Source: Fibrobacterota bacterium (GTDB lineage Bacteria; Fibrobacterota; Chitinivibrionia; Chitinivibrionales; FEN-1185). Taken from it: a DNA stretch of 8,853 bases. The position numbers and the translations under genes are program-made. Positions within the stretch are counted from its first letter, which is position 1. Every line of letters begins with the position of its first letter. This document shows, in pieces, positions 88 to 8,853 of the stretch. The notes under the pieces are model-generated. The model made no database searches. It saw nothing but the letters and a program-made list of their open reading frames with translations, and was not told the origin of the DNA. The DNA is taken from NCBI GenBank assembly GCA_003165595.1, contig PLWQ01000012.1, positions 1 through 8,853 of the forward strand, given 5' to 3'.

Positions 88-115
88 CCTTCAGCCTTCA
101 TCCTTCAGCCTTCAT
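88..115. repeat. Inverted heptamer array overlapping the 3' end of the core-metE gene
   Basis: Read on the plus strand this is CCTTCAG, CCTTCAT, CCTTCAG, CCTTCAT: four units alternating at one base, which makes two copies of a 14-mer. It is the reverse complement of the unit in the array at 1-40. The last residues of the neighbouring minus-strand gene (R-M-K-A-E-G) and its TGA stop at 98-100 are encoded inside the array. The array has therefore either invaded the 3' end of the gene or grown out of it. The A/C alternation gives regularly spaced mismatches when the array is paired with the one at 1-40. Confidence 0.88.
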
Positions 116-1171
116 CCTTTTCTTCAGCGCTTCCGATGTCTGCGCCAGCATATCGAAAACCCGCTCCGCCTGCGCCTCGGAAAGCGAACCGGTTCCGCAC
201 GACGGTGTGAGCATGGACTGTTTGTAAACCAGCTCTCTGTCGACTCCCTTTGCACCCAGACCGTCCACCACCTTGTCGTATCTGGCTACGAGAGACTCCG
301 CGGTCTCGTCCATGATTCTTTCCGACGTCGGCACGATGCCCCATGCAATATAACTGCCGAATTTCAGGAAGGCATCCACTTCGCTCGCGTACAGGGCAAT
401 GGACTGGCCATAGCCGTAGGCATCGAAGTTGATGATGTCCACTCCAGATTCGATAAGTATCGGCCATTCGGTGTTGCCGCAGCAATGGACGCCGCACAAT
501 CCGCCGGCGCCGTGAATCGCCTCAACCACCTCCGAAACCGCTGCGATAACATCGTCGCGCTGGACCGACACATACGTCGACGAACCGAATGCCGACAAAA
601 TGGGTTCGTCCACAAAGCAGATGAGATTTTCGGCGAATTCCTTGAACAGGTTGAGTTGCCACCGGCATTTCGCGGCAAGCCCCTTTATGATAATGTCGCG
701 AAAGACTTCGTTGTAATAAATCGCCCGCTTGTTCTCGTCAACAATGGAAAGCCCGATGGTGAGCGGCCCCGTGGTCTGCACCTTGAGCCAGGGCCGCTTT
801 GCCGGAGCTGCTTTGAGTCTGTCGCGCAGCGCGTAAATGCCGCGCGAAAACGCGGGCGAAACGGCAAACGCGCTCCAGTCGTCGCTCTCCTGCGCCGCCA
901 TGAACTTTTCGTAGAAATCGGCCATTGCAGCGGCGTTGGCGTCCTCGTCGGCCGTGTCGAAATACATTCGACCTTTTTCCTCGTCAATCTTAACGCACGG
1001 CAATCCTTCCGAATACTGAATTTCCATCTGCTCGCGCAGGCCCAGCCGCGGGAGCTGGGGCCAGATGGGGCAGCCAGGGATTTTGTCAAGAATAATATCC
1101 AGCGCCTTTTCGGCGCTTGCATGCGGCAGGCTGCCGATTGCGGTTGCAAGGAATGTTGTTGATGCGGCCAT
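98..1171 (-). CDS. Core-MetE-type (folate-independent) methionine synthase-like protein
   Basis: A 357-residue protein of the UROD/MetE-like TIM-barrel superfamily. It resembles the C-terminal catalytic half of cobalamin-independent methionine synthase without the N-terminal folate-binding half. Visible features: an N-terminal ATAIGSLPH motif (residues 9-17); V-D-E-P at 187-190, the homocysteine-binding Asp/Glu region; H229-C-C231-G-N, the His-x-Cys zinc ligands; and C325 in LTPSCGTGSL, the late zinc Cys. Known core synthases transfer a methyl group from methylcobalamin or a corrinoid protein to homocysteine. The ATG at 1171 is chosen because an AAAGGAG ribosome site lies 5 nt upstream and conserved sequence begins right after it; an upstream in-frame start at 1246 would overlap cooC. 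The gene follows cooC with a 71-bp gap and is probably co-transcribed. The C-terminus ends inside a heptamer repeat. Methyl-corrinoid:thiol transfer to another substrate remains possible, since the superfamily includes coenzyme M and other methyltransferases. Confidence 0.82.
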   Translation of the reverse strand: MAASTTFLATAIGSLPHASAEKALDIILDKIPGCPIWPQLPRLGLREQMEIQYSEGLPCVKIDEEKGRMYFDTADEDANAAAMADFYEKFMAAQESDDWSAFAVSPAFSRGIYALRDRLKAAPAKRPWLKVQTTGPLTIGLSIVDENKRAIYYNEVFRDIIIKGLAAKCRWQLNLFKEFAENLICFVDEPILSAFGSSTYVSVQRDDVIAAVSEVVEAIHGAGGLCGVHCCGNTEWPILIESGVDIINFDAYGYGQSIALYASEVDAFLKFGSYIAWGIVPTSERIMDETAESLVARYDKVVDGLGAKGVDRELVYKQSMLTPSCGTGSLSEAQAERVFDMLAQTSEALKKRMKAEG

Positions 1172-1176
1172 AAAAG

Positions 1177-1183
1177 CTCCTTT
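1177..1183 (-). promoter_or_regulatory. Ribosome binding site of the core-metE gene
   Basis: The minus strand reads AAAGGAG, followed by five bases (CTTTT) and the ATG at 1171-1169. This strong site decides the start over an in-frame codon 75 nt further upstream. Confidence 0.8.
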
Positions 1184-1200
1184 AATTCTAAATGAATCTG

Positions 1201-1242
1201 GTGGGGACACCGCTTCGCGGTCGCAGTGCGCCCTTCCCCCAC
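1201..1242. repeat. Nested inverted repeat between cooC and core-metE
   Basis: An outer arm GTGGGG (1201-1206) pairs with CCCCAC (1237-1242). Inside it, ACCGC (1209-1213) pairs with GCGGT (1217-1221) around a TTC loop, and a small CGCAGTGCG hairpin follows at 1222-1230. The structure fills most of the 71-bp gap and ends one base before the cooC stop codon (1243-1245). There is no T-run after it on the minus strand, so a simple intrinsic terminator is unlikely. It could be a REP-like element, an mRNA processing or stability structure within the operon, or an attenuator reducing expression of the second gene. Confidence 0.6.
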
Positions 1243-2055
1243 TCAAAAACTCTTATTTGCATTGGCAAATTCACTCAATTTCTCCGCTATTTTCTCAAAC
1301 TCCGCCCGTATCTCCTCTGTCCCCGGCAAATCGAAAATCGAAATCGCTTTACAATCGGCGTCCACGAACTTCTGATCGTAGAAAACGCTGCCCAGCACGC
1401 GTGCCGTATCGACCTCTCCGGAAACCAAGGCTCGCTCGTCGTCAGCCGTTCTCATTTTATTGAGCACAAACAGCAGCTTGTCGGCCAAGCCGATGTCTTT
1501 TGACAATGCAATGATCCGCCGCGCCGTTTCCCTGCTTCGCGTGCCGGGCTCCAGGACTATTATCATTGCGTCAACGCCCTGCGCCGTGGCGCGTCCCAGG
1601 TGCTCGATGCCCGGCTCCATGTCCACCACAACCGTTTCGTCTTCGCGGAGAACGAGGTGGCGGATGAGTTTCTTGAGAAACACGTTTTCGGGACATGCGC
1701 AGCCACCGCCGCCGCTTTTTACCGCGCCGAGCACAAGCAGCGAAACGCCGTTGTGGACAAGGCCGTACTTCAGTGCCACATCGGAAACTTCCGGCGACAA
1801 AGAAAACATCTGGCCGGCCCGCCCGAACCTGGCGCCTGTTCGCTGTTCGATGAGGCCCGTTTCCCGCGCAAGCGGGCGAATTGCGGCCTTGAGGTCGCCC
1901 GGCAGTCCGAGGGCCGACGCAAGATTCGCGTCCGGATCGGCGTCTATGGCGACAACATGCTGACCCTTTGCCGCGAAAATCCTGCACAGTGCCGCTGCAA
2001 GAGTGGATTTTCCAACGCCGCCTTTGCCCGAAATGGCGACTTTGAGTCCGCGCAC
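1243..2055 (-). CDS. cooC: CooC-type carbon monoxide dehydrogenase maturation (nickel insertion) ATPase
   Basis: A 270-residue SIMIBI/MinD-family ATPase. Deviant Walker A GKGGVGKST (residues 10-18), D-A-D-P-D-A-N-L (38-45, switch I), C119-A-C121 in GGGGCACPENVF (the CXC motif that binds metal at the CooC dimer interface), and switch II V-D-M-E-P-G (144-149) followed by IEHLGRATA. This combination is characteristic of CooC/AcsF, cytoplasmic ATPases that help insert nickel into the C-cluster of CODH or the A-cluster of acetyl-CoA synthase. The start is set at a GTG with AAAGGA 6 nt upstream, giving M-R-G-L-K-V-A-I; the longest open frame would add 18 residues with no homology-like character. 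The length fits the family. It is first in a probable two-gene unit with the core methionine synthase. No CODH or ACS gene is in the window, so the client enzyme must be encoded elsewhere. Confidence 0.92.
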   Translation of the reverse strand: MRGLKVAISGKGGVGKSTLAAALCRIFAAKGQHVVAIDADPDANLASALGLPGDLKAAIRPLARETGLIEQRTGARFGRAGQMFSLSPEVSDVALKYGLVHNGVSLLVLGAVKSGGGGCACPENVFLKKLIRHLVLREDETVVVDMEPGIEHLGRATAQGVDAMIIVLEPGTRSRETARRIIALSKDIGLADKLLFVLNKMRTADDERALVSGEVDTARVLGSVFYDQKFVDADCKAISIFDLPGTEEIRAEFEKIAEKLSEFANANKSF

Positions 2056-2061
2056 AACCCA

Positions 2062-2067
2062 TCCTTT
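2062..2067 (-). promoter_or_regulatory. Ribosome binding site of cooC, supporting a GTG start
   Basis: The minus strand reads AAAGGA, then six bases (TGGGTT) and GTG at 2055-2053. The next codons encode R-G-L-K-V-A-I-S-G-K-G-G, placing the P-loop close to the N-terminus as expected for CooC. The ATG-like start at 2109 has no better site. Confidence 0.7.
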
Positions 2068-2151
2068 ATGAAAAGATTCAAGCCTGCATGGCTCAAACTG
2101 CACGAACAAACAATCATCCTGCTGCGGGAACGATGCCGATCACAGAGAAAG

Positions 2152-2167
2152 CCGGAACGCATTCCGG
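2152..2167. repeat. Perfect hairpin in the cooC leader
   Basis: CCGGAA (2152-2157), loop CGCA (2158-2161), TTCCGG (2162-2167): a perfect 6-bp stem with a four-base loop, about 100 bp upstream of the cooC start. A second short dyad follows at once (TCCG ... CGGA, within about 2169-2182). It could be an operator or a leader-RNA structure. No poly-T follows on either side, so it is not an obvious terminator. Confidence 0.45.
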
Positions 2168-2255
2168 ATTCCGCTTTTCGGACTGATAATGCGTCTGCCT
2201 CATTTACATTCGCGGCAACAAACCCTCTGCCCGCGCGCCAGGCCGGACTGGAACG

Positions 2256-2394
2256 TGCGCTGGAGCGCAGTGCCGCCTGACCGCGGCCCGCAGGGCCATG
2301 GCGGCAGGCGGTACCGAGGCCGACCGGCCGAGCGTGCAAGGAGGCCGCCGCCGCAAGCGGCGGGGCGCCCAAATTCTCTATGTCTTGCGGCACT
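2256..2394. repeat. GC-rich mosaic palindromic intergenic element
   Basis: A run of nested inverted repeats. TGCGCT/AGCGCA (2256-2261 with 2264-2269); TGCCGCC/GGCGGCA (2271-2277 with 2300-2306) enclosing GGCCC/GGGCC (2285-2289 with 2293-2297); an alternative pairing CCGCCTG/CAGGCGG (2273-2279 with 2305-2311); the palindrome CGGTACCG (2309-2316); and CCGCCGC/GCGGCGG (2348-2354 with 2357-2363). The unit GAGGCCG occurs twice (2316, 2341). An 8-bp inverted pair AGTGCCGC/GCGGCACT (2269-2276 with 2387-2394) brackets most of it, and the DNA turns AT-rich immediately beyond. This is what a non-autonomous intergenic repeat (REP or MITE-like) looks like; whether it recurs in the genome cannot be seen from one window. 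Confidence 0.6.
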
Positions 2395-2559
2395 TGTCCG
2401 CCGAAAACTTATTAAAATAATTAACACTACGATGCACCCGGCCCCGTATTTTGCCGTTTTTGCAAAAAACAGCCTCATGCAGGTGACGGCAAAGAACTAT
2501 TTTTCACTACTTCTTTTTGAAGCTACAGAGGTTTCTTTCACCTCAACCGGAAAATCCAC

Positions 2560-3525
2560 ATGTTTAGACCTCAAATCAAGGTTTGCGACTGTACGATCCG
2601 CGACGGCGGATTGATGAATAACTCCAAGTTTACTGTCGAAACGGTCCGAAGCATCTACAAGGCCTGCAGTGAGGCTGGCGTGGACATTATCGAACTGGGA
2701 TACCGCAACAGCAGGGACCATTTTTCGCCGGATAAGTACGGAGCGTGGCGTTTCTGCGACGAGGACATGCTCAAGAAAGCGACCGACGGCATTCCCAAGA
2801 CCGCAAAAATCGCCGTGATGCAGGATGCGCATAAAGCAAGCGGCGACGACGTGCTCCCGAAATCGGAAAGCATCGTTGATCTCATTCGGGTCGCCACCTA
2901 CGTCAAGGACGTCGACAAGGCGATCGCCCTTGCCAACAACGCAACGAAAAAGGGGTACGAAGCCACCATCAACATCATGGCTATTTCGCATGTTCTGGAG
3001 CGCGACCTCGACGAAGCGCTGCAGCAGATTGAGGCGGAGACATCCATAACCGCATGCTATATCGTGGACAGCTTCGGGTCACTGTACAGCGAAGACATCG
3101 ACTATCTGGTCCACAAGTTCCAGCGCTACCTCAGGACCAAGGAGATTGGCATCCACTGCCACAACCAGATGCAGCTCGGATTTGCGAACACCATAGAGGC
3201 CATCATCAAAAACGTCAATTACCTCGACGGCACCCTGTATGGCCTTGGCCGCGCCGCGGGCAATTGCCCGATGGAGCTGCTCATGGGCTTTCTCAAGAAC
3301 CCCAAATTCAACATCCTGCCGATTCTGGACGTCATCGAATCCACCATCCTGCCCTTACGCAAGGACATGGAATGGGGCTACAACGTTCCCTATATGATAT
3401 CAGGCATGCTCAACACCCATCCGATCGACGCGATGAAATACGTAGACGCGCAACGGGACAACGGCAAGGTGGAAGGGTTTGTAAAGTTCTACGAGCGGAT
3501 GAGGGCCGAAGAGATTTCTACATAA
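2560..3525 (+). CDS. HMGL-like (DRE-TIM metallolyase) aldolase-domain protein
   Basis: A 321-residue protein with the pyruvate-carboxyltransferase/HMGL-like TIM barrel. Key elements: C-T-I-R14-D15-G-G (catalytic Arg and metal-binding Asp), E-L-G-Y at 45-48, D170-S-F-G-S, the metal ligands H199-C-H201-N-Q, and the G-L-G-R-A-A-G-N loop at 228-235. Family members carry out divalent-metal-dependent C-C bond making or breaking: 4-hydroxy-2-oxovalerate aldolase, HMG-CoA lyase, isopropylmalate or homocitrate synthase. The barrel looks closest to the 4-hydroxy-2-oxovalerate aldolase branch, but no DmpG-type communication domain or acylating aldehyde dehydrogenase partner is visible, so the substrate is unknown. 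The ATG at 2560 lacks a clear Shine-Dalgarno (only CCGGAAAA upstream), but the conserved barrel starts a few residues later, so little could be lost. Its stop lies inside the end of the convergent flavoprotein gene. It may serve a biosynthetic cluster lying elsewhere. Confidence 0.8.
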   Translation: MFRPQIKVCDCTIRDGGLMNNSKFTVETVRSIYKACSEAGVDIIELGYRNSRDHFSPDKYGAWRFCDEDMLKKATDGIPKTAKIAVMQDAHKASGDDVLPKSESIVDLIRVATYVKDVDKAIALANNATKKGYEATINIMAISHVLERDLDEALQQIEAETSITACYIVDSFGSLYSEDIDYLVHKFQRYLRTKEIGIHCHNQMQLGFANTIEAIIKNVNYLDGTLYGLGRAAGNCPMELLMGFLKNPKFNILPILDVIESTILPLRKDMEWGYNVPYMISGMLNTHPIDAMKYVDAQRDNGKVEGFVKFYERMRAEEIST

Positions 3526-4681
3526 GGTGGCGCATCGCCAGCACCAGGCGTGGAAACCTGCCCAGACTCAAACCGATTATCTTTGAGATGGAGCGTTTGT
3601 TCGGCGGAATTTTCGAGAGTGTCGCGAATGCCTTGTCGTAGTCGGCATCGGGAATTTTGACAAGCGCGTCTTTGGTCTTCGACAGCTTGCCGTGCTTTTT
3701 CCCCAAGGAATTATACCAGCGTTTCCGGTACTCTTCGCCGTATGCGCTCCCCCGCCCGGCCGTTGGCGCAAGGAGCGTTTTGAGTGCATAAGCGCCTGCC
3801 ATGGTTCCGCTTTCCATAGCTTCCACAATACCGGCTCGGGTAAACGGGTTGACCGCGCTCGCCGCATCGCCCGCCTTCAAAAGCCGCGGCGCGGCTATCG
3901 CAATCGGCCTGCCCTCGCAGGGAATTGTCCCGGCAAAGCGGCCAAGCACGCGGGCATGGGGATAATTCTTTGAAAGAAACGAATCAAGCTTTTCTCGAAT
4001 GTTAACCTTGGCCCGGTAGGAGTTGCCCAGCACGATGCCGATGTTGGCCGCATTTTTCTCGCGCGGAAACGCCCACGCATACCCTCCGGGCGCGAGGTCC
4101 CTGCCCAGGTACACGTGAATCGCGTCGGGCTCAATGCCGGCGTTTTCGGCAATTACAAAACAGGCGGGTTCCAGGTCCGGCGGTTTGCAGACGATCTTGT
4201 CCTTTTTGCCAAGTCCCGCGATGGGGCCCGACGCGTCGACAACCACGGCCGCATGCGCGCATGTTCCGTCGGCAAAGCGCACCTCGCGCGTCGATCCGGC
4301 AACAGGTTCAATCCCGATTACGCGAACACCGAGCCGCAGTACCGCGCCCAGCGCCGCGCAGCGGCTTGCCATGTCGGACTGCATCCTGGCCCTGTCGATG
4401 ATGCAACCGGCGTTACGCGCCGTGTGGCTTATTGCGGACCCGTCGGCCGAATGAAGCACCACCGTGCTGATGTTGAACCGCACCCATCCCGGCTTCACGT
4501 CCACAGCCTCGCGGAATTGGTCGGTCCACACACCCTCGGCGCAGGCGATTGGTTTTTCCCAGGGGACCACTTTGTCGACAAGCAGCACAGAGGTCGCCGG
4601 ACGTGCCGCAAGGATCTTGAGGCAGGCGCACAGGCCGGCGGGCCCCGCTCCGATAATTATGATGTCGTAAACGAGGGACAT
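3518..4681 (-). CDS. Geranylgeranyl reductase-family FAD-dependent oxidoreductase
   Basis: A 387-residue flavoprotein. Near the N-terminus, Y-D-I-I-I-I-G-A-G-P-A-G-L is the Rossmann dinucleotide-binding motif (GxGxxG), followed by an acidic strand end (L-L-V-D-K). In the middle, G-G-Y-A-W-A-F-P is the family's substrate-cavity motif. Later comes G-D-A-A-S-A-V-N-P-F-T-R-A-G-I, which contacts FAD. Relatives reduce isoprenoid double bonds in archaeal lipids, chlorophyll side chains or menaquinone tails, so prenyl-chain or quinone reduction at the membrane is likely; the substrate cannot be read from sequence. I chose the ATG at 4681 over a TTG at 4705 because the Rossmann fold begins five codons later. 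Neither start has a strong ribosome site. A TATATT box (4692-4697) lies just upstream, so a very short leader is conceivable. The 3' end overlaps the convergent aldolase gene by 8 bp. Confidence 0.82.
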   Translation of the reverse strand: MSLVYDIIIIGAGPAGLCACLKILAARPATSVLLVDKVVPWEKPIACAEGVWTDQFREAVDVKPGWVRFNISTVVLHSADGSAISHTARNAGCIIDRARMQSDMASRCAALGAVLRLGVRVIGIEPVAGSTREVRFADGTCAHAAVVVDASGPIAGLGKKDKIVCKPPDLEPACFVIAENAGIEPDAIHVYLGRDLAPGGYAWAFPREKNAANIGIVLGNSYRAKVNIREKLDSFLSKNYPHARVLGRFAGTIPCEGRPIAIAAPRLLKAGDAASAVNPFTRAGIVEAMESGTMAGAYALKTLLAPTAGRGSAYGEEYRKRWYNSLGKKHGKLSKTKDALVKIPDADYDKAFATLSKIPPNKRSISKIIGLSLGRFPRLVLAMRHLM

Positions 4682-4812
4682 GGTTGCCGTAAATATACTT
4701 TCCAAGGTCCGACGCCGGAGTTACTATTTACGGGCCGGGAATCCGTCTTTCGGCGGATGAGGCACGACCTTGTGCGTCCGGCATCCCCGCCGGTCATTTG
4801 AGATCAGGGCCG

Positions 4813-5526
4813 TTACAGGAATTTTTCTCGCTTTGTCAGGTTGCGCACACCCCACACGATTCCGATAAGGCCCGCTGCCGCGAGCATGATGCGGTTGGCC
4901 CGTACGGTCGCGTGCCATGTGATTTCCTGAGCGCCGCTCACCGCGTCGAAGGGATCAAGAAAGACATTCCACTGGCTTGCGGCAAAGGATCCGCTGAAGA
5001 TCCAGAAAAGGAAGCCGGCCAGAACCAGGATCACCGCCGCTCCATAGGCGTTTCGCATAAGCGTGGAACATGCAAACGCGGCCCCGCCCCAGAACACCAC
5101 GGCAAAGAAGAGATGAAACGCCATGCCGAACACCGGGAATCCGCTGTAGAAAACCGCGCAGAGACAGCACAGGCAGAACAGCACCGCCTCGGTGATCAGA
5201 TAGCAGAGCAGAAGCCGGAACAGCCACACTTTGTAACGGTAGTCCGGAATGCCGAAAATCACCTCCAGCATCTGTGTGTCCGCGTCGCTCTGGATGCCGA
5301 ACACGGCAGGATAAAACACCAGCAGAATGCCGGGCAGAAGCAGGAGATCATAAAGGCTCGCGGGGTTCAATTCCTTTCCGGCCGCTCTGTTGACAAACAC
5401 CACAAGGACGAAAAATCCTACGGCAGCGGCAAGAAAGAAAAGAAAACGCTGCACGAAAATGATCTTCAGATTGTAGCGCACCAGGGCGGTAACCAATGGT
5501 GCCGTTTGCAACAGCCTTCTTATCAT
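4813..5526 (-). CDS. ABC-2-like membrane permease subunit coupled to the RND-ABC fusion
   Basis: A 237-residue, strongly hydrophobic protein with about six predicted helices (roughly residues 27-46, 57-77, 101-127, 134-152, 161-180, 210-227) and a basic C-terminus. The N-terminal pattern R-Y-N-L-K-I-I-F before helix 1 and the overall layout match small ABC-2-type permeases; I see no soluble domain. The ATG shares an ATGA with the TGA stop of the upstream gene and has AAGGA seven bases before it, indicating translational coupling and balanced stoichiometry. It is most likely the membrane partner of the ATPase domain fused to the RND protein. Helix 3 carries five cysteines (C108, C118, C120, C121, C123) and an acidic residue (E113), which is unusual for a permease. 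There is no T-tract terminator after the stop; about 130 bp then separate it from the flavoprotein gene, which may be part of the same transcript. Confidence 0.78.
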   Translation of the reverse strand: MIRRLLQTAPLVTALVRYNLKIIFVQRFLFFLAAAVGFFVLVVFVNRAAGKELNPASLYDLLLLPGILLVFYPAVFGIQSDADTQMLEVIFGIPDYRYKVWLFRLLLCYLITEAVLFCLCCLCAVFYSGFPVFGMAFHLFFAVVFWGGAAFACSTLMRNAYGAAVILVLAGFLFWIFSGSFAASQWNVFLDPFDAVSGAQEITWHATVRANRIMLAAAGLIGIVWGVRNLTKREKFL

Positions 5527-8500
5527 GACCCCGTCCTTTTCAGTTCACGGGTAAGACACAGATAGGCGTCTTCAAGCGCGGGACGCACGGCTTGCGCGCG
5601 AGGGTGCGGAAGCGCATCCGCGATGCAGCGGACCCGTACGCGGTCCCGGTCACCCACATGCCTCACCACGGCGGCCGTCCGCGCAAGCACCTCGTATTCG
5701 TGCGCGTCAAGAGTAACCTCCCACACGCGGCCCTCGGCGCGATCGAGCATGCCCTGCGGCGGGCCCTCATACCGGAGCTCGCCGGACATGAGCACGGCCA
5801 GCCTGTTGCACGAGGACGAAATATCCTCGATAATATGCGTGGAGAATATGACGATGCGGTCGCGGCTGAGTTCCATGAGCAGGTTGCGAAAACGGATTCT
5901 CTCGCTCGGATCGAGCCCGGCCGTCGGCTCGTCCACAATCAGGATTCGAGGCAGGTGCAACAGGATCTGGGCAATGCCGATGCGCTGCCGCATACCGCCA
6001 GAAAACGAACCGATGGGCTCGTGCGCATGCTCGATCATGTGCACGGCGCGCAGGACCTCCTCGATGCGGCCGTTGCGCAGCTTCCGGTCGTGCAGGCCCT
6101 TCAGGATGGCCTGATAGTCGAGGAATTCCCATGCCGTCAAGTTAGGATACGTGCCGAACTCCTGCGGCAGGTAGCCGATGAGGCCCTGCAGCTCCTCGCG
6201 GTGCAGCGCGGTGTCCTTTTCGTTGATGTAAACCTTGCCGTAGGTCTGATCGTAAATACCTGCAACGATGCGCATGAGCGTGCTCTTGCCTGCGCCGTTG
6301 GGTCCCAGAAGCCCATACATGCCCGGTTCGATGCGCAGGCTCACGCCTTTGAGCGCATGAAAGGCGGCGCGCTGCCGGCCGGGCAGCGGCAGCAACAGCA
6401 CAAACGCGCAATAGCCTGCGGCCAGCGGGCCCCAGGGCTTTTTCCATTTCCGAAGGTCAAGGCCGGAATGGGTGGCCAGCCACCGGTCGGTGGCAAGAAA
6501 GGCCAGGACCGCATACCACAGCAGGCCCACTGCGGCAACGACGGCGAAGCGATTCCAGGCGATCTGAAAAAACACGAGGTTCGCCGCGGGCATCGCCCAC
6601 TTCACCACGGCATATGCCCGGCGCCCGGCGGCCGGTCCGATTCGTTCAAATGCCCTGTGGCATAGGCGCGCAAAGCCGGAGTACTTGACAACAAATAGAA
6701 CCGCGCAGCAGGTGACGGCTGCAAAGAGCGCCTGCCAGAACTCGTTTTGAAGATACCAATACGTAAAGTAGCACAGGAATCCGAGCAGCGGCACCTGCCA
6801 GAGCAGGCCGCCCCAATCCGCGGCGCCTTCCCCCCGGCCGATGGCCGAGACCGCGTCGCCCCATTCCCGGGAAAAACGGCCGGGCATGTTGTAGATCTTC
6901 TGCACGTTGCGGATGGTGATGGAAACCGTTTCCACGCCGGAGCCGGCCGGGGCGGCCCTGCGCAGGCTGGACCGAACGAACCACACCGCCGCGGGAATCG
7001 CCACGGCTGCGATTATCAGGTCGGCAAGGCGCCAGACCAGATCGTCCACCTTCACCATTATCAAGGCCGCGGCCAGCGACAGGCCGCCGAACTGAACCAG
7101 GTTGACTTTCCAGGAAAGCCCGCGCAGGTATGCCAGCGCGGATTCCAGGCCTTGGTAGCAGGTTGGAATGAATACCAGGGTCAAAAGCGCCGCGGAAATT
7201 ATCCCTCCGATAACCGTGAGCGCGAAGGGCGCTCCTATGGAGCCGAGCGTGCCGGCATTTCCCAGAGCCAAAGGCAGCATCCCGGCCGCGGTGGTGATGG
7301 CCGTGATGAAGATCGGCCGGATGCGGTCCTGGCCTGCGGTCATGAGCGCGCGCGCCGTTGAAAATCCCCGTTTGCGCAGCACGCGCACGAAATCGATCAG
7401 GATGATGCCGTTGCCCACCACAACCCCGAGCAAAATCAGAAAGCCCATGAGGGTGTTCGCATTAAGCAATGAATGCCCGGTGGCCACGAGAAGCCAGAAG
7501 GCGCCGATCGCGGCAAGCGGAATCGAAAACATCATCACCAGCGGCGCCGTGAGCGATTCGAACACCGCGGCCAGGATCATGAAAATGAGAACCACTGCGG
7601 CGCCGATCAGGTAAAAAAAGTCGTTCAAACCGCTTTGCCCGTGGGTGGGTTCAACAGAAAGTCCAGCGGGAAAGGTCATGGCCCCCAGGATGTCGTCAAC
7701 CTCCTGCCGGGAGGCTTTGAGGAGTTCGTGCGATCCGGTAATCTCGTCCGTAAAGCGGTACATGACCTGGATTCTGTGTTCCTGGTTGGCCCTGTTGATG
7801 CTGGCAGGACCGCTGGCGCGGATGATCCGGCTCACTTCATCGAGAGGATGATCCGTGGTGTCGGAAGCGGAGATGGGCACATTATGCAGTTCGTCAAGGG
7901 TCTTGGCGTCGCCGGATGGGCTCTTGCGGCCGCCGGCGGCGCCCGTCTGCTGTACCGAAGCCGCAGCCGAGGTCACCATGATATCGTATTGGTCGGCCCC
8001 CTGTTTGAACGTGAGGCCCGAGGCCATCTCCTGCGTAAATCCGGAGAGCTCGGAGGCCACGGCCTGCAGCCCGATGCCGTACTGGCGCATGAGCTGCGTG
8101 TCGAACAGCAGGTGCACCTCGCCTTGACGCCCGGGAACATCCAGCTGCACCGACTGCACCGAGAAAAGATTTTGCAGTTCGTACCGGATGTTGTCGGCCA
8201 CCGCCTCCATCTGCGCGAAATCGTCTCCCCGCACCGTGATGATTTCGTCCTGCCCACCGCCTCCCAAAAGCTGCTGCAGCCGCGCGGCCGAGGCCGCGGT
8301 GCTCGGCGTGCCCCGGTACCGCGAACTGGACGCAGGCTGCGAAAAGCCGACGCTCCCCAGCTCAAAGTTGTCGAGCCGCTTCTGGATGTCGCCCTTGATG
8401 GCGGCGAGGTCCCGGTGAGCGATTTCGCCGAAGTTATCCTTCAGTTTGAGCGTGAGAACCGCCTCGTCTTCGTACACCATGCTGAGCAGGTCTTCGGTTT

Positions 8501-8853
8501 CGGCGACGCCCTGCAGGCGCTTTTCGAGCTCCCGCACGGCAAAATCTGTTTTGTCAAGTGTCGCTCCCGTGGGCATGGTAAGGTACAGGGCGAACTGGTT
8601 GTCCTGGGCCTGGGTGGCGGCTTCGCTTCCCTGCATCAGGCACAGGGCCAGGGAAACCAGAAAGACGGCAAGCGCGCCGCAGATGCAGGGCACGGGATGG
8701 CGCAGCGCCCCTTTGAGCAATACGCGGTACATGCGGACCGCCGGGGTGCGCGAGCCGATTTTCCTGAATCCCAAAGTTTGCGGATTCCCCGAAGCCTGCT
8801 TCGGGGTTAGCAAACGACTATTAAATTCTTCTTCCTTAGGGATGGAAGATGCC
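5523..8853 (-). CDS. RND efflux permease (C-terminal half) fused to an ABC transporter ATPase, 5' partial
   Basis: The visible part is 1109 residues; the frame is open to the window edge, so the N-terminal RND half is probably outside. Residues are numbered from the TTG at 8813. TM7 lies at 41-60 and the porter domain at about 70-385. TM8-12 (about 398-550) include the AAVFES motif, the GVVVGNGIILIDF helix and R-I-R-P. Two extra helices (about 573-613) precede an ABC-like first strand and A-loop, ITIRNVQKIYN (632-642). A membrane region with several helices fills 643-817. The rest of the ABC domain follows: Walker A GPNGAGKST (837-845), Q884, signature FSGGMRQR (937-944), Walker B ILIVDEPTAGLD (957-968) and H993, with an ABC-2-type tail ending LEDAYLCLTRE. 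All ATPase motifs look intact. The AcrB TM10 proton-relay lysine aligns with G467, while the TM11 arginine is kept (R499). An internal ATG at 8732 could start a separate half-protein. The likely role is export of a hydrophobic substrate together with the coupled permease. Confidence 0.8.
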   Translation of the reverse strand, partial: ASSIPKEEEFNSRLLTPKQASGNPQTLGFRKIGSRTPAVRMYRVLLKGALRHPVPCICGALAVFLVSLALCLMQGSEAATQAQDNQFALYLTMPTGATLDKTDFAVRELEKRLQGVAETEDLLSMVYEDEAVLTLKLKDNFGEIAHRDLAAIKGDIQKRLDNFELGSVGFSQPASSSRYRGTPSTAASAARLQQLLGGGGQDEIITVRGDDFAQMEAVADNIRYELQNLFSVQSVQLDVPGRQGEVHLLFDTQLMRQYGIGLQAVASELSGFTQEMASGLTFKQGADQYDIMVTSAAASVQQTGAAGGRKSPSGDAKTLDELHNVPISASDTTDHPLDEVSRIIRASGPASINRANQEHRIQVMYRFTDEITGSHELLKASRQEVDDILGAMTFPAGLSVEPTHGQSGLNDFFYLIGAAVVLIFMILAAVFESLTAPLVMMFSIPLAAIGAFWLLVATGHSLLNANTLMGFLILLGVVVGNGIILIDFVRVLRKRGFSTARALMTAGQDRIRPIFITAITTAAGMLPLALGNAGTLGSIGAPFALTVIGGIISAALLTLVFIPTCYQGLESALAYLRGLSWKVNLVQFGGLSLAAALIMVKVDDLVWRLADLIIAAVAIPAAVWFVRSSLRRAAPAGSGVETVSITIRNVQKIYNMPGRFSREWGDAVSAIGRGEGAADWGGLLWQVPLLGFLCYFTYWYLQNEFWQALFAAVTCCAVLFVVKYSGFARLCHRAFERIGPAAGRRAYAVVKWAMPAANLVFFQIAWNRFAVVAAVGLLWYAVLAFLATDRWLATHSGLDLRKWKKPWGPLAAGYCAFVLLLPLPGRQRAAFHALKGVSLRIEPGMYGLLGPNGAGKSTLMRIVAGIYDQTYGKVYINEKDTALHREELQGLIGYLPQEFGTYPNLTAWEFLDYQAILKGLHDRKLRNGRIEEVLRAVHMIEHAHEPIGSFSGGMRQRIGIAQILLHLPRILIVDEPTAGLDPSERIRFRNLLMELSRDRIVIFSTHIIEDISSSCNRLAVLMSGELRYEGPPQGMLDRAEGRVWEVTLDAHEYEVLARTAAVVRHVGDRDRVRVRCIADALPHPRAQAVRPALEDAYLCLTRELKRTGS
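8787..8806. repeat. Perfect 9-bp-stem palindrome within the RND-ABC reading frame
   Basis: CCCCGAAGC (8787-8795) and GCTTCGGGG (8798-8806) form a perfect stem around a CT loop. It sits in the segment before TM7 and is translated in frame as roughly L-T-P-K-Q-A-S-G-N-P. The A+T-rich DNA to its right (8807-8840) differs from the surrounding coding sequence. It could be a mobile palindrome inserted in frame in the TM6-TM7 linker, or an intergenic hairpin if translation really begins at 8732. Confidence 0.7.

Follow-up and report, generated by a model that had tools for sequence, protein, structure and literature searches.

RND and ABC parts share one reading frame

RND (resistance-nodulation-division) and ABC (ATP-binding cassette) transporters are regarded as distinct classes, each with its own energy source. 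The first 8,853 bases of the 673-kb contig PLWQ01000012.1 from a Fibrobacterota bacterium (assembly GCA_003165595.1; this whole stretch is referred to as the window) raise the question whether both can be united in one protein and, if so, how such a protein might work. The window contains an uninterrupted minus-strand frame of 1109 codons that runs from position 8852 to 5523 and is open at its 5' end. The Pfam profile ACR_tran matches residues 38-567 of its translation (E 6e-60) over profile positions 512-1018, i.e. the C-terminal half of an RND permease, while ABC_tran matches residues 834-978 (E 7e-29). The ABC nucleotide-binding domain (NBD), here termed NBD_B, carries Walker A (GPNGAGKST, 6279-6305), the Q-loop (6153-6176), the signature FSGGMRQR (5982-6005), Walker B with the D-loop (5907-5945) and the H-switch (5829-5846). 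The domain search proposed in the initial annotation thus finds both profiles within this frame, and the claim behind it, an RND part and a full set of ABC motifs on one polypeptide, is borne out by the frame, the Pfam matches, the motif coordinates and independent genomes.

The RND part had initially been taken for a C-terminal half. This is correct for the window frame and incomplete for the gene, because the window ends at a gap that lies inside it: two undetermined bases ("nn") occupy positions 8854-8855, directly past the window end. Beyond the gap, a second frame on the same strand (8807-10378 in locus L009) encodes the N-terminal RND half. The permease, which we call RND2, is accordingly distributed over window positions 7152-8741 (minus strand; transmembrane (TM) helices 7-12 and the periplasmic part) and L009 positions 8861-10378 (minus strand; TM1-6; ACR_tran 7-495). 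In a sister species of the same genus (G001) the two halves are continuous, and the entire fusion resides in one frame of 1607 codons with 78-84% identity to the window protein. The sister protein matches ACR_tran in full (33-1065) as well as ABC_tran (1332-1476) and consists of a complete RND permease (TM1-12), some six more TM helices and the ABC ATPase domain. Family-average hydropathy places two of the additional segments behind the RND set, at about 1076-1130, and the other four ahead of the ABC core, at about 1174-1291.

The gap itself sits in one hairpin of a palindromic repeat of about 110 bp, which comprises two hairpins and is present in about 40 copies in the genome. The copy in question extends from window position 8765 to 8853 (minus strand) and on to about L009 8885, lies within the coding gene between TM6 and TM7 and is probably in frame. 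Another copy (locus L006) contains "nn" in its other hairpin, and such gaps in two copies look like assembly trouble at hairpins. In the sister species, the repeat is absent from the corresponding place and the gene is continuous. From start to stop, the gene of the window genome measures 4856 bases if both n's are counted. A multiple of three would need one more base, and one more base is what other repeat copies have at the spot of the gap. The gene is thus likely to be intact and to carry about 38 additional residues, in frame, between TM6 and TM7. A repeat inside a gene is reminiscent of the in-gene palindromic elements of Rickettsia; an Rfam search of the locus gave no match.

The initial annotation had itself named a frameshift or an assembly join between the RND and ABC parts as the finding that would overturn the fusion, and a gap within the RND portion of this gene could be taken to point that way. 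However, it separates the two RND halves and not RND from ABC, and the frames are continuous in the sister species and in genomes of Bacteroidota. An assembly join at the RND-ABC junction was ruled out, as the same architecture is found in the sister species and eight further genomes. We thus give an artificial origin of the fusion next to no credence.

The fusion is conserved in two phyla within a seven-gene locus

Ten genomes, two from Fibrobacterota and eight from Bacteroidota, encode the protein, and it is fused in all of them; the complete versions are uninterrupted and comprise 1556-1633 amino acids. Searches with the linker gave strong matches in two of 167 genomes of its own phylum, plus one negligible match. 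Linker and NBD together identified the fusion in five of 395 genomes of Bacteroidota (the phylum of a Prevotella genome) and in 5/164 genomes of a single order of that phylum, two of them shared with the larger set. None was detected in samples of 221 genomes of Verrucomicrobiota and 229 of Pseudomonadota, empty results that call for caution. A two-sequence alignment scan of GTDB contigs with only two short peptides returned no ortholog and has little weight, because the Bacteroidota members came to light in subsequent searches of whole genomes. Plasmids yielded only standalone NBDs, none of which covered 80% of the query.

In all nine loci that can be read, the fusion gene is part of the same series of seven genes, all in one orientation and either overlapping at their ends or separated by short gaps: NBD_A, a large ABC-2-like permease, an outer membrane factor (OMF), a membrane fusion protein (MFP), RND1, RND2::NBD_B and a small membrane protein, TMD_B. 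This order, read directly from genomes of both phyla, thus includes MFP and OMF genes and, as for MdtBC-like hetero-RND pumps, two RND genes with one MFP. The tenth locus (G670) is interrupted by contig ends and stays outside the gene-order count. Between the sister species and Bacteroidota, identities amount to 57-63% for NBD_A, 44-50% for RND1, 43-46% for the fusion, 37-41% for TMD_B and 27-33% for the large permease. The latter (L009 16153-19605) combines a non-catalytic M1-like stretch with a C-terminal Golvesin_C domain. Golvesin_C was found in all five proteins tested and a weak M1-like stretch in three of these, with matches to Peptidase_M1 staying below threshold. The HExxH zinc motif is absent from all nine orthologs, and classification as an M1 aminopeptidase does not apply. 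Solved structures searched with one member's large permease gave no match.

Our preferred reading, to which we assign a probability of about 50%, is that the fusion is the RND2::NBD_B subunit of a seven-gene, envelope-spanning export machine in which an ABC motor is tethered to a tripartite pump of the hetero-RND type that is itself driven by ions.

In a tree of the NBDs, NBD_B (n = 10) and NBD_A (n = 9) each fall on one side of a branch (support 100 and 100/99); NBD_B is a single clade with 100/100 support, distinct from NBD_A. This split is consistent with a single origin of the fusion, whose sporadic spread suggests horizontal transfer. A different NBD fusion was observed in genome G518, where an NBD-containing frame of 1432 amino acids does not match the RND part. 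At L099 4921-8895 of this genome, a frame of 1324 amino acids has an NBD_A-like ABC domain at the C-terminus, behind an N-terminal portion of 1000 residues.

The ABC domain is split by membrane helices

The complete set of ABC motifs described initially is indeed present, but the domain that carries them consists of two pieces. In NBD_A proteins the motif I.I.NL.K.Y, which covers the first strand, begins 33 residues ahead of Walker A. With a position matrix for this N-terminal motif built from standalone NBDs only, the best placement in all nine fusions tested was 199-240 residues ahead of Walker A, where scores reached 13.0-19.9 bits, while no runner-up exceeded 9.7. A MAFFT alignment with distant NBDs splits the window protein at the same place. 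In an AlphaFold2 model, the first strand has a pLDDT of about 94 and the NBD core of about 90, compared with about 50 for the membrane parts, and solved NBDs superpose from their first residues, which fall on model residues 90-93 (superposed part about 90-493; for 1vpl, Z 30.4 and rmsd 1.4 over 223 aligned residues). Motif placement, alignment and superposition therefore argue for an NBD built of two pieces: behind the A-loop, a membrane insert of 168-209 residues intervenes before the second strand begins.

On the minus strand of the window, TM12 of RND2 is followed by TM13-14 (6975-7106; family-average hydropathy and alignment A3), by the detached first strand with the A-loop (VSITIRNVQKIYNMPGRFSREW, 6861-6926; motif placement, predicted strand and superposition) and by the four hydrophobic segments TM15-18 of the insert (6477-6806; family hydropathy, alignment A3 and low-confidence model helices). 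The main part of NBD_B with Walker A, Q-loop, signature, Walker B, D-loop and H-switch occupies 5721-6362, and alignment A3 delimits a C-terminal extension at 5526-5720. Comparison of TM13-18 with TMD_B and with ABC-2 profiles gave no match.

Besides the motif set, the predicted N-terminal strand fits membership of NBD_B in the ABC family. The motifs are intact in all ten fusions, and this bears on the idea that NBD_B, akin to FtsEX-type mechanotransmission, hydrolyses ATP for regulation or gating rather than as a transport motor. ABC modules can act without transport, and neither a substrate nor a path has been recognised for the pump. Nevertheless, with every catalytic motif retained and a second full ABC module encoded in the operon, we consider a purely regulatory NBD_B highly doubtful.

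The RND part departs from the AcrB relay, as do most unfused RNDs nearby

Full-length ACR_tran matches of about 1020 residues (E 1e-154 to 1e-163) in six fusions identify RND2 as an HAE-1-type RND permease. Of the AcrB proton relay, RND2 retains D407, R971 and T978, while D408 is replaced by N or S and K940 by N or G; RND1 deviates similarly. The glycine in the window protein had been put forward as a sign that the RND part may be coupled differently. We dropped this argument, because the lysine is likewise missing from 19 of 27 readable sequences among 30 unfused RND frames drawn from the same and related genomes (8 K, 13 N, 6 other residues). The TM4/TM10 pattern of RND2 is common among ordinary RNDs nearby. 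As judged from these residues, an AcrB-type relay is excluded for the fusions, and this does not speak against RND membership, since most unfused RNDs nearby deviate as well.

The same residues have to be considered if ATP hydrolysis by NBD_B drives or gates the RND cycle directly through the extra TM helices, turning RND2 into an ATP-powered or dual-powered pump. The covalent link, conserved in 10/10 fusions, an NBD split by helices that could in principle pass motion into the membrane, and the replacement of D408 and K940 all point in this direction. On the other hand, D407, R971 and T978 are retained, unfused RNDs often show identical replacements, the small membrane protein accompanying NBD_B suggests an ordinary pair of NBD and transmembrane domain, and the symmetries of an RND trimer and an NBD dimer do not match. 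An ATP-powered or dual-powered RND is distinctly unlikely in our judgement, and direct driving or gating of the RND part by an ABC domain that wraps around membrane helices, with one polypeptide using both ATP and an ion gradient, likewise seems unlikely to us.

A tethered ABC motor as a working model

In the tethered machine that we prefer, RND1 and RND2 would form a hetero-oligomeric pump feeding a common duct of MFP and OMF. This pump would still be ion-driven, a view supported by the retention of D407, R971 and T978 and by the common TM4/TM10 pattern. NBD_B would dimerise beneath the membrane and, together with TMD_B and the extra TM helices, constitute an ABC motor adjoining the RND part. 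ATP hydrolysis would then lift the substrate from the cytoplasm or the inner leaflet to the periplasmic entrance of the RND pump, which would push it out via MFP and OMF, and the fusion would keep both motors within the same assembly. The MdtBC permease of Escherichia coli is a B2C1 heterotrimer (PMC7015380). If RND2 were likewise present twice per trimer, two NBD_B domains would be available, as an ABC motor needs.

TMD_B, a protein of 237 amino acids (4813-5526, minus strand), is the natural partner of NBD_B because of gene position and co-occurrence. Its start overlaps the fusion stop by four bases, it directly follows the fusion in all nine loci readable at this point, and in Bacteroidota it occurs in 5/395 genomes, exactly the five with the fusion, which fits an obligate partner. 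We therefore regard TMD_B as a putative, probable ABC-2-like partner permease. Several points weigh against the tethered machine in this form. TMD_B does not significantly match any ABC-2 permease (best Pfam E 0.05), and nothing significant emerged from comparison with PDB, Pfam and ABC-2 profiles. Profile-profile comparison by hhalign gives a probability of about 1%, although the global alignment is collinear over the full length, and the structure model is poor. The two RND2 copies per trimer are a stoichiometry borrowed by analogy from MdtBC, and the second ABC module, NBD_A with its permease, could provide the partner of NBD_B instead.

In the latter case, the large ABC-2-like permease would be served by NBD_A and NBD_B as a pair, the fusion would tether that exporter to the RND pump and TMD_B would be an accessory. 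In favour of this arrangement, the two NBDs are about 43% identical, fall into one broad subfamily and are always encoded in the same operon. However, Bacteroidota commonly have NBD_A-like domains beside a large multi-TM permease with no NBD_B present, so NBD_A probably does not need a second NBD type, and TMD_B tracks the fusion. A shared NBD_A/NBD_B motor is thus possible, if unlikely.

The remaining window genes (98-4705) seem unrelated to the pump. By eye, they encode a UroD-like methyltransferase, a CooC-like ATPase, an aldolase/HMG-CoA-lyase-like protein and a geranylgeranyl-reductase-like flavoprotein; no such genes were recognised beside the pump in other loci.

Relation to known transporters

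A major review assigns the inner-membrane part of tripartite pumps to ABC, RND or MFS (major facilitator superfamily) transporters (PMC8277102). MdtABC and MuxABC, two-permease HAE-1 RND tripartite pumps, resemble the present system in having two different, adjacent genes for full-length ACR_tran permeases and one MFP. In contrast, they lack an ABC domain, extra TM helices and ABC genes in the pump operon, and MdtB and MdtC retain K940 and D408. MacAB-TolC combines an ABC motor with an MFP and a TolC-type duct and has NBD and membrane domain on one chain (PMC8277102), whereas the NBD of the fusion is attached to an RND permease and split by TM helices. The pairs of an NBD and a large ABC-2-like permease in Bacteroidota, which NBD_A and the large permease resemble, have NBDs about 40-45% identical to NBD_B. 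These NBDs are standalone and not joined to RND, and in NBD_A-type pairs the first strand lies 33 residues from Walker A compared with about 200 in the fusions. In GldFA-like ABC-2 exporters a small permease of about 240 amino acids resides beside the NBD, and GldA_ABC_ATP is the best ABC model for the fusion. Its NBD, however, stays below the GldA cut-off, and TMD_B shows no significant relationship to any of the small permeases compared with it.

The initial annotation had not recognised a characterised transporter class here, and in the open-access literature and family databases searched we found none. Paper searches in an open-access library turned up nothing relevant to RND-ABC fusions, and the architecture is unnamed in Pfam and NCBIfam. 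The fusion, a hybrid of two known kinds, looks like a pump that has so far gone unrecognised and in which both energy sources of the cell may be combined. A second unusual feature is the interruption of the NBD by membrane helices, which bears on how an NBD is coupled to its membrane domain. Conservation of the RND-ABC fusion with the same partner genes in two phyla suggests selection for having both motors in one assembly. With the fusion, two possibilities can be tested directly: powering or gating of an RND pump by ATP, and primary and secondary transport operating in series.
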